This document shows positions 48,230 through 54,083 of a DNA stretch of 64,000 nt, piece after piece. Under the pieces are notes generated by a model that worked only from the letters and a program-made list of their open reading frames with translations, made no database searches and was not told the DNA's origin. This DNA is from Actinophytocola xinjiangensis (lineage in GTDB: Bacteria; Actinomycetota; Actinomycetes; Mycobacteriales; Pseudonocardiaceae): positions 1 to 64,000 of the forward strand of contig NZ_MSIF01000002.1 of assembly GCF_001921215.1 (NCBI RefSeq), in the 5' to 3' direction. Each line of letters opens with the position of its first letter. Position 1 is the first letter of the stretch. Position numbers and translations under genes: made by a program.

Positions 48230-49201
48230 TCAGCTGGCGTACGCGCGGAGGCGCTCCGCTCGCTCACCCTGGCGCAGCTTCGACATGACCTCGCGTTCGA
48301 TCTGACGCACCCGCTCGCGCGAGAGGCCGAACCGCTTGCCGATCTGGTCGAGCGTGTGTGGCTGTCCGTCATCGAGGCCGTAGCGCAGCCTGATGACCGA
48401 CTGCTCCCGATCGTCCAGCGTCGCGAGAACGCGGCGCAGGTCGTCGTGCAGCAGGCCGGAGATGACCGCGCTCTCGGCGTCGGTCGCCTCGCCGTCCTCG
48501 ATGAAGTCGCCGAGTGGGGCGTCCTCCTCCGAGCCGACCGGCATGTCGAGGCTGACCGGGTCGCGGGCGTGGTCGAGCAGGTCGGAGACCTTCTCCGGGG
48601 TCAGGCCGACCTCCTTGGCCAGCTCGTCGTGGGTGGCCTCGCGGCCGAGTTGCTGGTGCAGGTCGCGCTTGATCCTGGCCAGCTTGTTGACCTGCTCGAC
48701 GAGGTGGACGGGGAGCCGGATGGTGCGGCCCTGGTCGGCCATGCCACGGGTGATGGCCTGGCGGATCCACCACGTCGCGTAGGTGGAGAACTTGAAACCC
48801 TTGGTGTAATCGAACTTCTCGACCGCCCGGATGAGGCCCAGGTTGCCTTCCTGGATCAGGTCGAGCAGTGGCATGCCGCGGCCGGTGTACCGCTTGGCCA
48901 GCGACACCACGAGCCGGAGGTTGGCCTCCAGCAGGTGGTTCTTCGCCCGGTGTCCGTCGCGGACGAGTGCCTGCAGTTCGGTGGTGCTCGCGCCGTCGAC
49001 GTCGGCGGCGTTGGACTCGAGCATGTGGTGGGCGAACACGCCCGCCTCGATGCGTTTGGCCAGCTCGACCTCTTGGGCCGCGGTCAGGAGCGCGGTCCTG
49101 CCAATGCCGTTGAGATAGACGCGGACCAGGTCGGCGGCGGGGCCCTGGGCGTCGAGATCGATCTCGCCGGGCTCCGGGTCGCGCTGTTGTGGGACCGTCA
49201 T
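48230..49201 (-). CDS. sigB: Group 2 (SigB/HrdB-like) RNA polymerase sigma factor
   Basis: A 323-residue sigma-70 factor with regions 1.2 to 4 but no long region 1.1: [29 protein letters not shown] (1.2), [40 protein letters not shown] and [15 protein letters not shown] (2), [16 protein letters not shown] (3), and the region 4 helix-turn-helix [19 protein letters not shown]. The short N-terminus fits the group 2 stress/stationary factor SigB rather than the primary SigA. The ATG at 49201 has GGGAGGGAGAG upstream. Confidence 0.92.
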
Positions 49202-49452: not shown

Positions 49453-49488
49453 GTGGGAGCGCACGGCTGTGACAGCGGGCGCTCCCAC
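49453..49488. terminator. Hairpin after the TPR gene
   Basis: Perfect 10-base arms GTGGGAGCGC (49453-49462) and GCGCTCCCAC (49479-49488) with a 16-base loop, 72 bases past the TPR gene's stop on the minus strand. No T run; the likely end of the Hsp90-like/TPR transcript. Confidence 0.6.
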
Positions 49489-49560
49489 TGCATGGTTATG
49501 CACGAACGGGTGACACTCGATCAGGAACAGGTCACTTCGGACAGTTACCCGCTGGCGGGG

Positions 49561-52317
49561 TCACTGGTCGAGCGACTCCAGGTAACCCATCAGTCGCTCC
49601 CGCGCGTCCTGGGCGTCCGGCGGGATCTCCCGCGCCGCCGCGGTGAGCAGCTCCCGCGCCTCGGCGACCCGATCGCCGTCGGCCAGCAGCCGGGCCCGCA
49701 GCATGGTGGCGGCCACGGACTCCACGATCCCGCCCACCGCGCGGAAACCGTCGGCCGCCGCCGACGCGCGGGCCATCCCGTCGGCCGCGCGGCCGAGGTT
49801 GGCGTGGATGCGCGCGGCGTCGTAGTCCAGGAAAGCCTTCTGCCACGCCAGATCCGGGCCGTCGTCAGCAGTCAGCCGGTCTGCCAGTTCGGCCGCCATG
49901 GCATCCGCCTCGGCCAGCGCGTCCAGACAGCGCTGCTCCTCGGCGGCCCAGTGCCAGGACAACGCCGCCAGCCGCCGGTTCGCCAGCGCGGCGATCGGCT
50001 CGTCCGCCGCACCGAACAGCTCCGCCGCCACGGCGAACTCGGCCGCCGCCTCGTCGTCCCGGTTCAGCTCGTCGAGGATCTCACCGGCGATCCCGTGCAT
50101 CTGGCCGGCGCCGGCCTGGTTGTCCTCGGCCGCGCACAGCTGGGCGATCTCGGCGCACAGCGGCAACGCCTGCTCGTGCTGGCCCAACGCCCGGTAGGCC
50201 CGAACCAGGACGAACCGGGCGTGCTTGCCCGGCTCGACGGCCTCCGGCGGCAACTCGGCCAGCGCCTCCTCCACCGCGTCGGCGGCCTCCTCCGGCCGCC
50301 CGGCGGCCAGGCTCGCCTCCGCGAAGGTCACCTTGGCGAGCGCGGTCGGCCGGCCGGCGGCGGCGAGGTCGGCGACCGCGGCGGCCAGTGGCCCACACGC
50401 CTCGTCCGCCCGGTCCTGGTCCAGCGCGACCTGACCGGTGAGGGTCCGCGCGTTCGCGCGGACCCCCGGGTCGGTCGTCCGCTCGGCCGCCGTGAACTGG
50501 GCGCGTGCCTCATCCCACTCGCCGAGGGAGGCGTGCAGCCGGCCGAGGAGGATCCGTGCCCCGGCCAGCGCGCCGCTGCCCGGCTCGGCCTCGTAGGCGG
50601 TCACCGCCCGCCGCAGCAGCGCCATCGCCGCCGTCGTGCGCGCGGGGGTGGCCTTGGCCTCTGCCATGGCCAGGGCGTACAGGGCGTCGCCGACCAGCAT
50701 CGGATCGCCGTACTCCCGCGCCAGCTCCACCGCCGTGGTGAACGCCGCACGGGCCTGTTCGTCGCGGCCGGCGAGCTCGTGGACAGCGCCGAGGCAGAGC
50801 TGGGCACGCACCCGCTGCTGCTCGTCGCCGATGGTCATCAGCTCGGCGGTGGTCGCCGCCACCAGCTCAACGGCCTCCTCGACCCGACCGAGGTGACACC
50901 ACACCAGGCCGAGCCGACTCCGGTTGACCGCCACCTGGACCGGGTCGCCGAGCTCCTCGTACAGCGCGATCACGCGCTCCACGAGCCGCCCCGCCTCGTC
51001 CGGGGCGACCTCGGGGACACGCGCGCTCAGCCGCTGGGCCAGCAGGTCCGACTCGGGATCGGGGCACACCTCGTCGAAGCGCCGCCACACGGCCGCCTCC
51101 GCGACGTGGTTGCCGGCCAGCCGCTCGCGGCGCGCCAGCGCCACGAGGTCGGCCGGAGACGCCGGCAGCTCCTCGACCGGCTCGGGGGCCGGGGCAGCGG
51201 CCCGGCGGGCCAGACCGGACAGCGGCAGCCGCGCCACGAGCGGCTCCGCCGCGATCGTCGCCTCGATCCGGTCGCCGACCGCCGAGGTGCCGTTGCGCTC
51301 GTCGAACCGCCGGGCCAGGCCACGGGCCCGCGCCGCCAGCTCGTCGTGCAGCTGCTTGGCCGGCAGGGTCGTGGCCGGCGCGTCGTCCAGCGCCGGGCGC
51401 CGGACCGGGGTGTCGCCGTGGCCGGCGTCGGTGACCAACCGCAGCACCAGCGCCGCGGCGGCGCTGAAGCACAGGTCGGCGTAGGGGCTCGGCGGCTCGG
51501 CCAGCCACCCCAGGTGCCGCTCCACCAGCTCCAGGCCCCGGGCGTGGTTGCCGGTCAGCGCGCAGAACGTCAGGTGGTCGCCCATCATCCGCAGCTCGCC
51601 CCGGTTGGCCTGGATCAGGCGGTAGGCCCGCCGGTGGGCGCCCGCCGCCTCCTCCAGCCGGCCGGTGCGCAGGTAGGGGACCAGCAGGCTCGTCAGGATC
51701 GCCTGCGGCTGTTCGAGACAGTCCAGCGACCCGTCCAGCACCGACAGCGAGGCCGCCACCGCCTCCTCGTCGCGGCCGTTCCAGGTCAGGAAGCGCACCT
51801 TCTCGGTCGGCTCGCAGGCCGCGCAGTCGGACAGGCTGCCGCGCGGCGCCGTGCACCACAGCCGGTACTGCTCGGCCGCGGTCTCCCGGTCACCGATGTG
51901 CCGGGCGACCGCCTCGCGGTTCTGGTGCACGGGGTTGAGCGTGTGGCCGCCCAGGCGGTACCGCCGCTCCATGTCGTCGAGCATGGCGTAGGCGCTGGCC
52001 AGCGGGATGTCCGGGAAGTCGGTCAGCTTGGTCATCCACTTGAACTGCCACAGCAGCTCCTGCTCGTCGTCGGGTCGCCCGCCCTCGCGGTCGAACGCCG
52101 CCAGGCACCAGGCGAAGGTGACGAACGCCTTGGCCGGCTCGCCGCCGAAGGTGTACGCGCTGGTCGCGACCATCCGCGCGGCGAACCGCAGCTCGTCCTC
52201 GCCCAGGGCGTCGGCGTGGCGGACGATCTCCTCGACGGTGGTGGTCTTGGTGCGCCCGTAGGGCATCCGGTGGGCGGCGCCGAGCCGGTCCCACAGCTCA
52301 CGGTCGGTGCGGCTCAC
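49561..52317 (-). CDS. Large tetratricopeptide-repeat protein coupled to an Hsp90-like ATPase
   Basis: A 918-residue soluble, Ala/Glu-rich helical protein. From about residue 180 to the end it reads as many degenerate TPR helices (such as RTGRLEEAAGAHRRAYRLI, LGRVEEAVELVAATTAEL, ALGQHEQALPLCAEIAQL, DRVAEARELLTAAAREI). The N-terminal 170 residues are different and hold a cysteine cluster, Cys155, Cys165 and Cys168, that could bind zinc. Its GTG start overlaps the stop of the Hsp90-like gene (GTGA), so the two are made together. No enzymatic motif is seen; a scaffold, co-chaperone or client-binding role is inferred. Confidence 0.9.
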   Translation of the reverse strand: MSRTDRELWDRLGAAHRMPYGRTKTTTVEEIVRHADALGEDELRFAARMVATSAYTFGGEPAKAFVTFAWCLAAFDREGGRPDDEQELLWQFKWMTKLTDFPDIPLASAYAMLDDMERRYRLGGHTLNPVHQNREAVARHIGDRETAAEQYRLWCTAPRGSLSDCAACEPTEKVRFLTWNGRDEEAVAASLSVLDGSLDCLEQPQAILTSLLVPYLRTGRLEEAAGAHRRAYRLIQANRGELRMMGDHLTFCALTGNHARGLELVERHLGWLAEPPSPYADLCFSAAAALVLRLVTDAGHGDTPVRRPALDDAPATTLPAKQLHDELAARARGLARRFDERNGTSAVGDRIEATIAAEPLVARLPLSGLARRAAAPAPEPVEELPASPADLVALARRERLAGNHVAEAAVWRRFDEVCPDPESDLLAQRLSARVPEVAPDEAGRLVERVIALYEELGDPVQVAVNRSRLGLVWCHLGRVEEAVELVAATTAELMTIGDEQQRVRAQLCLGAVHELAGRDEQARAAFTTAVELAREYGDPMLVGDALYALAMAEAKATPARTTAAMALLRRAVTAYEAEPGSGALAGARILLGRLHASLGEWDEARAQFTAAERTTDPGVRANARTLTGQVALDQDRADEACGPLAAAVADLAAAGRPTALAKVTFAEASLAAGRPEEAADAVEEALAELPPEAVEPGKHARFVLVRAYRALGQHEQALPLCAEIAQLCAAEDNQAGAGQMHGIAGEILDELNRDDEAAAEFAVAAELFGAADEPIAALANRRLAALSWHWAAEEQRCLDALAEADAMAAELADRLTADDGPDLAWQKAFLDYDAARIHANLGRAADGMARASAAADGFRAVGGIVESVAATMLRARLLADGDRVAEARELLTAAAREIPPDAQDARERLMGYLESLDQ

Positions 52318-54083
52318 GGCAGGTCCTCGGTGGTCGGCACGGCCTGGTCGAGCAGGCCGAGGAACGAACGGTTCAGCAGCGCGGCGTCGGCCGGCCGGAT
52401 CGGGTGGTAGCCCAGCAGCAGCGCCTGCCCGTAGAGCGACTCCACCGCCAGGCGCACCAGGTCGGGTTCGGTGAGCCGGCAGATGCGGCGCACCAGCGGG
52501 CTGCGGTGGTTGAGCACCAGCTGGGGGCGGTCCTCGGCCGGCTTCTCGAACGCCGAGAGCACCCCGGCCCACAGCTCGTCGGCCCGCTCGCGGGTGGCGC
52601 GCAGTTCGCTCTGGAACGCGGCGGCCCGGTCGACCAGGAACAGCACCGGCAGCGACGCCGGCTCGAACGCGCGCAGCACGACGTCGCAGCCGAACGGGTC
52701 CATGCCGCGCTGGGCGGCCAGCAGGAACGGGCGCAGCGCCAGCTCGGCGGCCGGTTCGAGCGCCTCGAACCGGGTGGCCAGGTCGCTGGGTTCGAGCCGG
52801 GCGACGGTCAGCTCGGCGTCGAGCGCCGGCAGCCGCTCGATGATCTCCGCGTCGTAGGTGTAGCCGCCGTTGACCAGCGGCAGGTTCTGCGCGGCGGCGA
52901 CGGCGGCGAGCTGGCGGAAGTCGTCGGTGGTCGCCGAGTAGCGCACGGTGCCGTACCGGGCGCGGAAGTCGGCGAGGGTCATCTGGCCGACGTTGGTCTC
53001 CATCGGCCACCACTGGTCGACCAGCCGGAGCATCTCGTCGTCGTGCAGCGCGAGGGCCTTGACGCCGAGGTGGTGGATGCCGAGGAACTGGTTGAGCCGC
53101 GCGGGATCGGTGCGGCCCAGGTCGACCAGCCAGCCGCGCAGCGCGTCGCCGAGCGCCTCGCGGGTGCTGTCCAGCAGCGAGTCGGCGTGCAGGGCCTCCC
53201 GGCTGGCGGTGGGCCGTAGCTCGCCGGAGTCGACCACGCAGCGGGCGAAGAACGCCCAGTCGGGCAACAGGTCGGTGGCCGACTCGGACAGCAGCATCCG
53301 CTTGAGGTAGACGCGGTGGCCGGCGCGCGCGGCCGGGCTCGCGGCGAAGGGCAGCACGAACGCCAGCCCGGTCAGGCCCGCCTCGGGCACCGACAGCTCG
53401 ACGACGTCGAACGGGGTGAAGCCGAAGGTGTCCTGCGCGTAGCCGACGAGGTCCGCGCGGCGCTGGCCCGGCGTGCGGTCGCCATCAGCACCGTCGGCGC
53501 GCCACGGCGGTTCACCGCTGACGGTCTCGCCGTTGACCGTGACCGGGTGGGGCAGCAGGCCGCCGTAGAGGCGGGCCAGCTCGATGACGGTCGGCACGGC
53601 GAACCACTGCTCGCAGCCCGGCCGGGCGGTGAGAGTGACGGTGGTGCCGGCGCTCGCCCGCTGGGCGGGGCCGACGGTGTAGGTGCCGTCCGCGCGTCCG
53701 ACCCAGGCCACGGCCGGTGCGTCGCCGCAGCGGGTCACCACGCGCACGTCGTCGGCGACCAGGAACGCCGAGAGCAGACCGATGCCGAACTGGCCGAGGA
53801 ACTCGTGGCGGGCGAAGCCGAGGTCGTCGCGCTTGGCGCTGCGGCCGATGGTCGCCAGGAACTCGTGCACCTGGGCCTCGGTGAGCCCGATGCCCGAGTC
53901 GCTGATGGTGAGCGTGCGCCCGTCCACCTCGACGGCGATGGTCGCGCCGTCGGTACCGGCGGCGGTGGTGGCATCGACGGCGTTCTGCATCAGTTCCCGC
54001 AGGTAGACGCGGGGGCTGGAGTAGAGGTGGTGGCTGAGCAGGTCGACGATGCCGCGAAGGTCGACCTGGAAGGTGCGGTTCAC
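52314..54083 (-). CDS. Hsp90/HtpG-like GHKL ATPase
   Basis: A 589-residue protein with an intact Hsp90-type ATP site: ELMQNAVDA (30-38, catalytic Glu30 and Asn34), DSGIGLT (62-68), IGRSAKRDD (lid) and GQFGIGLLSAF (97-107). The middle domain keeps PTASREALHAD, equivalent to the Hsp90 SRE loop with the catalytic Arg. It is somewhat shorter than HtpG and its C-terminal third is diverged. The start GTG at 54083 gives NRTFQVDLRGIVDLLSHHLYSS, matching the Hsp90 N-terminus. It is translationally coupled to a large TPR protein. Confidence 0.93.
   Translation of the reverse strand: MNRTFQVDLRGIVDLLSHHLYSSPRVYLRELMQNAVDATTAAGTDGATIAVEVDGRTLTISDSGIGLTEAQVHEFLATIGRSAKRDDLGFARHEFLGQFGIGLLSAFLVADDVRVVTRCGDAPAVAWVGRADGTYTVGPAQRASAGTTVTLTARPGCEQWFAVPTVIELARLYGGLLPHPVTVNGETVSGEPPWRADGADGDRTPGQRRADLVGYAQDTFGFTPFDVVELSVPEAGLTGLAFVLPFAASPAARAGHRVYLKRMLLSESATDLLPDWAFFARCVVDSGELRPTASREALHADSLLDSTREALGDALRGWLVDLGRTDPARLNQFLGIHHLGVKALALHDDEMLRLVDQWWPMETNVGQMTLADFRARYGTVRYSATTDDFRQLAAVAAAQNLPLVNGGYTYDAEIIERLPALDAELTVARLEPSDLATRFEALEPAAELALRPFLLAAQRGMDPFGCDVVLRAFEPASLPVLFLVDRAAAFQSELRATRERADELWAGVLSAFEKPAEDRPQLVLNHRSPLVRRICRLTEPDLVRLAVESLYGQALLLGYHPIRPADAALLNRSFLGLLDQAVPTTEDLP

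Follow-up and report, generated by a model that had tools for sequence, protein, structure and literature searches.

Two overlapping genes in the window (the whole stretch of 64,000 nucleotides of Actinophytocola xinjiangensis DNA that was analysed) probably form a two-gene chaperone unit, consisting of a divergent Hsp90, here called Hsp90C, and a dedicated co-chaperone. We assign a probability of about 0.6 to this reading. It suggests that certain Hsp90s of bacteria work with their own specific co-chaperone, and the constant gene pair provides a concrete candidate for a bacterial Hsp90 co-chaperone. The Hsp90 branch itself is already on record; what appears to be new is its near-constant pairing with a partner family that is uncharacterised in the profile libraries searched (NCBIfam, Pfam, PADLOC and PHROG). 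The pair has the following features, all on the reverse strand.

52314..54083, reverse strand: Hsp90C gene, 589 aa; NCBIfam NF010683 at 781 bits, cut-off 455
49561..52317, reverse strand: partner gene, 918 aa
52314..52317, reverse strand: GTGA, overlap of the Hsp90C stop and the partner start, the start codon being GTG
52325..52328, reverse strand: GAGG, ribosome-binding-site-like core within the 3' end of the Hsp90C gene, ending 7 bases before the partner GTG
53970..53996, reverse strand: ATP-site motif ELMQNAVDA, residues 30-38, with E30, N34 and D37 identical in 57/57
53886..53900, reverse strand: ATP-site motif DSGIG, residues 62-66, with D62, G64 and G66 identical in 57/57
53778..53795, reverse strand: motif GQFGIG, residues 97-102, with G97, F99, G100 and G102 identical in 57/57
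53196..53204, reverse strand: middle-domain SRE loop with R295, identical in 57/57; a low-confidence segment of the model
51193..52317, reverse strand: partner residues 1-375, the constant N-terminal domain, predicted to be an all-helical TPR-like solenoid; profile match in 80/80 (best 80 of at least 570 loci)
51814..51825, reverse strand: C165-x2-C168 of the partner, from the alignment of 57
51718..51720, reverse strand: C200, third cysteine of the partner set, from the alignment of 57
50146..50808, reverse strand: TPR stretch assigned by Pfam in the variable C-terminal arm of the partner, about residues 504-724

The frames of both genes, including the GTGA overlap and the 918-residue TPR protein of the original prediction, were confirmed. 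Their codon-position G+C values (0.79/0.52/0.95 for Hsp90C and 0.75/0.49/0.96 for the partner) follow the pattern of real genes. An open reading frame of 985 aa on the opposite strand (49453-52410) was rejected as not gene-like, its values being 0.93/0.53/0.80. A gene for a sigma-70 family factor (48233-49201, reverse strand) is located just downstream of the pair.

The first protein scored above the cut-off of the curated 'HSP90 family protein' model NF010683/PRK14083 (781 vs 455 bits) and did not reach that of NF003555 for the molecular chaperone HtpG (155.5 bits, cut-off 371). Pfam PF00183 covered 52 positions at 23.5 bits in the protein scan, below its cut-off of 24.4, and reached 24.5 bits, just above this cut-off, at the DNA level in the genome scan. 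The Hsp90-type ATP site was indeed complete, as had been claimed from the window sequence: residues E30, N34, D37, D62, G64, G66, G97, F99, G100, G102 and R295 (11 of 11) were identical in all 57 aligned proteins, which comprise the window protein and 56 from the best 80 loci of at least 570 relatives, selected at 82% identity and 300 aa. The arginine of the SRE loop, here R295, has a catalytic role in Hsp90.

An AlphaFold2 model of Hsp90C had a mean pLDDT of 86.4 and a pTM of 0.75. Values below 50 occurred at residues 83-92, 292-300 and 587-589, so that the SRE loop is poorly modelled. TRAP1 was the top PDB match both by sequence and by fold, and the model aligned with full-length TRAP1 over 619 columns (E 9.9e-34, TM 0.67, about 20% identity). 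The NF010683 score and this full-length fold match together identify the window protein, as judged by sequence and model, as a complete Hsp90 that belongs to a divergent branch. It has the N-terminal, middle and C-terminal domains, the ATP site and the SRE arginine in common with canonical HtpG and TRAP1, but differs from them in its low identity over the whole fold and in the PF00183 score of the protein scan. The description of this Hsp90 as shortened is mildly correct, with 589 aa against the 604 positions of the family model, but all three domains are kept. Hsp90C as the housekeeping HtpG of this organism was ruled out by a canonical HSP90 that is encoded elsewhere in the same genome, by a separate gene at C12:639783-641069.

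In the accessible portion of Chen et al. 2006 (PMC1525184), bacterial HTPG proteins are split into Groups A-C, and Streptomyces coelicolor is given two HTPG proteins of different groups with lengths of 638 and 615 aa, the latter being HTPG2. The accessible portion of Press et al. 2013 (PMC3708813) recognises hsp90B and hsp90C, sets both aside from the analysis, and states that an obligate bacterial Hsp90 co-chaperone had not been identified. From length and distribution we infer that NF010683 corresponds to Group C HTPG and to hsp90C. The partner gene is not mentioned in these portions of the two papers, and nothing on bacterial co-chaperones was found in the accessible portion of PMC11687934. 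Titles and abstract openings in the open-access literature yielded no description of the Hsp90C-partner pair, which may still be in print.

The co-occurrence and adjacency expected for a fixed pair were observed in other genomes. In a class-level set, 36 of 296 genomes contained 41 Hsp90C copies, and the partner was found directly downstream on the same strand in 40 of these 41, which places the pairing beyond chance. The profile matches of the two proteins were 9-71 bp apart in the 40 pairs. Counted by genome, 35 had both families, one had Hsp90C only, three had the partner only and 257 had neither, giving a Fisher p of 8e-41 for co-occurrence with kinship ignored. A phylum-level set yielded 12 Hsp90C copies above the cut-off in 10 of 296 genomes, the genome of the window among them, and the partner was directly downstream on the same strand for all 12 when compared by eye. 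Hsp90C was present twice in five of the 36 class-level genomes, every copy with its own partner. The single unpaired Hsp90C (in G419) had the lowest score of the 41 and is coupled by an ATGA overlap to a TPR protein of 297 aa from a family that is different from the partner or very diverged. Weak matches to the TPR part only were not counted as partners (G036, G211, G221 and G231), nor were such matches in second place (G000, G107, G128 and G204).

Four of 44 partner copies stood without Hsp90C (those in G171, G204 and G565, plus the second of G466), which indicates that the domain is able to work by itself or with another component and counts against the co-chaperone reading. The lone partner in G171 adjoins a transposase-like open reading frame, as seen by eye. 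At locus L045 (6245-7441), a transposase-like open reading frame is situated upstream of a lone partner, at the place expected for Hsp90C, which may reflect a secondary loss.

Loci were fetched for the best 80 of at least 570 confirmed relatives, covering 24 named genera and three MAGs; this is a biased sample because the loci are the best ranked and all are labelled actinobacterial. All 80 had a partner profile match downstream on the same strand, including three in which the match is broken or cut by a contig end (L070, L094 and L095) and one in which the full domain match begins 1.2 kb downstream (L121). The first usable partner start was exactly at -4 in 63 of these best 80 of at least 570 loci, and no start was resolved in two. 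A start codon was present at -4 in 71 of the 80, with a ribosome-binding-site-like core ahead of the partner start in 55 of the 71 as compared to a background of 11% in the same genes. Tree distances of Hsp90C and partner were correlated over 77 of the 80 loci, with a coefficient of 0.865 (shuffles up to 0.115) that includes species history and is expected as much from shared descent as from interaction. At three loci (L061, L067 and L057) one Hsp90C gene is followed by two tandem partner genes. Neither of two findings contrary to the original prediction, genes unlinked in most relatives or an Hsp90C that is simply the HtpG of its genome, was obtained, because the families stay adjacent and a standard HSP90 gene is present elsewhere in the genome of the window.

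The partner contains TPR repeats recognised by Pfam, with TPR_16, TPR_12 and TPR_2 above their cut-offs and the best stretches at residues 504-648 in the C-terminal part; TPR_19 at residues 670-724 was below its cut-off. The N-terminal domain of the window partner had no Pfam match, and the corresponding domain of a Listeria partner gave a marginal match to TPR_8 (26.1 bits, cut-off 25.7). It is this domain that is conserved. Mean identity to the window partner was 47% in the N-terminal domain and 31% in the remainder, and the N-terminal domain was the better conserved part in each of the 59 complete partners of at least 800 aa from the best 80 of at least 570 loci. Residues 1-375 were modelled by AlphaFold2 as an almost all-helical solenoid with a mean pLDDT of 96.2 and a pTM of 0.93, for which Foldseek returned generic TPR/PPR superhelices (best E 1.8e-4). 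Conservation and the model place the constancy of the partner in a predicted TPR-like solenoid of about 375 aa at its N-terminus and outside the TPR array recognised by Pfam.

The C-terminal arm varies and consists of TPRs, a YbjN domain or nothing. Listeria has two tandem partner copies of 324 and 320 aa and Paenibacillus one of 353 aa, all comprising the N-terminal domain alone, and the pair is retained in both genera. In the partner of Catellatospora tritici (L124) the N-terminal domain is followed by a YbjN domain, as it is in the copies of G204 and G466 that stand without Hsp90C. YbjN resembles secretion chaperones. Partner-domain proteins ending in YbjN with no adjoining Hsp90C were also seen at L044 (8005-9606) and L145 (6265-8016), the former encoded behind a free-standing YbjN gene.

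The CxxC-type cysteine cluster noticed in the window sequence corresponds to C165 and C168 together with C200. Conservation of these cysteines was all-or-none, with all three present in 51 and all three absent in 6 of the 57 aligned partners, and the set was complete in 12 of 12 members of a wider alignment that included Listeria and Paenibacillus. C252 was considered as a fourth member and dropped, as it varies on its own in the alignment of 57. The three cysteines probably form a structural metal-binding site and are possibly redox-sensitive.

In the proposed unit, the first gene would provide a complete ATP-driven Hsp90 of the Hsp90C branch, which is expected to dimerise and to hydrolyse ATP. 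The second gene, coupled to it stop to start and presumably carried on the same message, would provide the dedicated co-chaperone. The constant module of this co-chaperone, an N-terminal helical solenoid of about 375 residues, would most likely bind Hsp90C, whereas the interchangeable arm (TPR array, YbjN or none) would most likely hold or select clients, with a presumed direction of action within the pair. The constancy of the Hsp90 and of the helical domain, the changing arm and the kept coupling are together most simply explained by a dedicated co-chaperone.

Gene-order conservation by itself also fits a client and its chaperone. The strongest rival explanation is that the partner is a private client, a helical-repeat protein that does the actual work and that is folded or stabilised by Hsp90C. 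The tight pairing and coupling would suit a chaperone that is made together with its sole client, and complete partners in the best 80 of at least 570 loci are mostly 860-1073 aa long. However, partners of 324-368 aa that have the N-terminal domain only are still paired, four partner copies lack an Hsp90C, and the constancy is in one domain rather than in length, which makes a private client unlikely. Less probable again is a housekeeping operon of which the proteins are co-made and act separately, with no physical contact. The existence of lone partner copies would agree with this, but the 4-base overlap is kept, duplicates occur as pairs, and other neighbouring genes are common to at most 6 of 35 representatives drawn from the best 80 of at least 570 loci, so that there is no conserved third gene. 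Upstream of the Hsp90C loci no CIRCE element (best 7 mismatches) or HAIR element (best 4 mismatches) was found and a SigR-like pattern occurred at only 1 of 81, giving no sign of known heat-shock control, which speaks against the co-chaperone reading.

The dedicated co-chaperone reading calls for comparison with eukaryotes, in which the TPR co-chaperones Hop, FKBP51/52 and PP5 bind the C-terminal MEEVD of Hsp90. The likeness to these proteins that was drawn in the original prediction is not supported. In both cases a helical-repeat protein accompanies an Hsp90, and the constant domain of the partner is TPR-like by fold, but the Pfam TPR array is variable or absent and none of the 80 Hsp90C proteins (best 80 of at least 570 loci) ends in EEVD. 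A eukaryotic-type MEEVD clamp was rejected, as these C-termini are at odds with it. The CO-Hsp90 of Shewanella, a TPR-containing bacterial protein, reportedly also acts with Hsp90, according to a preprint.

Both families were present in the same two of 14 control genomes, by presence count, these being Deinobacterium chartae, a member of the Deinococcota, and Corynebacterium glutamicum. As the latter is a tractable laboratory bacterium, it can be tested directly whether Hsp90 co-chaperones were invented by eukaryotes. Among the 36 class-level genomes with Hsp90C, a canonical HSP90 was also found in 10 at E 1e-30, with no match in the other 26. We tentatively extend the proposal, at slightly less than even odds, to the entire Hsp90C branch: this would be a machine made of two proteins, the Hsp90 and a member of a co-chaperone family specific to it with interchangeable client-binding arms, often serving as the sole Hsp90 of the genome, distributed over Actinomycetota, Bacillota and probably Deinococcota, and of an origin independent of the eukaryotic MEEVD-TPR system.

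Residues 18-269 of the partner match PHROG 34905 and residues 108-577 of the Hsp90 match PHROG 32952, both annotated as unknown function, which led us to consider a phage gene pair. Phage records matching the Hsp90 numbered 31, two of them across at least 80% of its length, and two records matched the partner. The two genes were found together in one record, MT837560.1 (Bacteriophage sp., 6.6 kb), with identities of 45.5% and 33.7%; it is a short unannotated piece and probably bacterial DNA. A scan of viral contigs gave two weak Hsp90 matches, the partner domain being in neither locus, and no pair. The phage gene pair was rejected.

Enrichment near defence genes, which had been suggested, was not seen among the ten window neighbours. 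Five of these belong to Pfam families (CoA ligase/acetyltransferase, sigma-70 factor, D-Tyr-tRNA deacylase, methyltransferase and PfkB kinase) and five have no Pfam family. PADLOC gave partial matches for two of the ten, to the models MzaA and mad2, via regions of the sigma-70 factor, which matches the end of MzaA at 190 bits, and of the methyltransferase; by Pfam both neighbours are ordinary proteins of these families. The N-domain of the window Hsp90 matches the PADLOC models TmtA (E 2.8e-10) and REase_II, phage RIIA families and, below cut-off, the BbrUII/HgiDII restriction enzyme model. Among 72,556 plasmid records, seven contained the Hsp90, and two of these seven plasmids are predicted to be mobilizable.

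These matches and plasmid records would fit a stress or conflict sensor in which an Hsp90-type ATPase works with a helical-repeat switch, akin to Hsp90-like ATPase systems with TIR or nuclease effectors, but such a sensor is very improbable, since the N-domain matches span only the ATPase fold common to those families, the window pair has no effector domain in Pfam, and the viral contigs and PADLOC neighbour matches gave the results described above. A defence role for the pair is possible but is not supported by the neighbours and matches examined. A distant Hsp90 relative with 27% identity (L059, 7932-10562), which would fit such a sensor, had no partner-domain match at its locus. It is encoded on a plasmid of Pseudanabaena sp. 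ABRG5-3 that is predicted to be mobilizable, and has a C-terminal extension with a weak TIR-like match (19.5 bits, Pfam cut-off 24.7). Its neighbours include an adjacent TIR-domain gene, a helicase-family gene and, second downstream, a TPR gene, and the locus is possibly a conflict system built on an Hsp90 relative.
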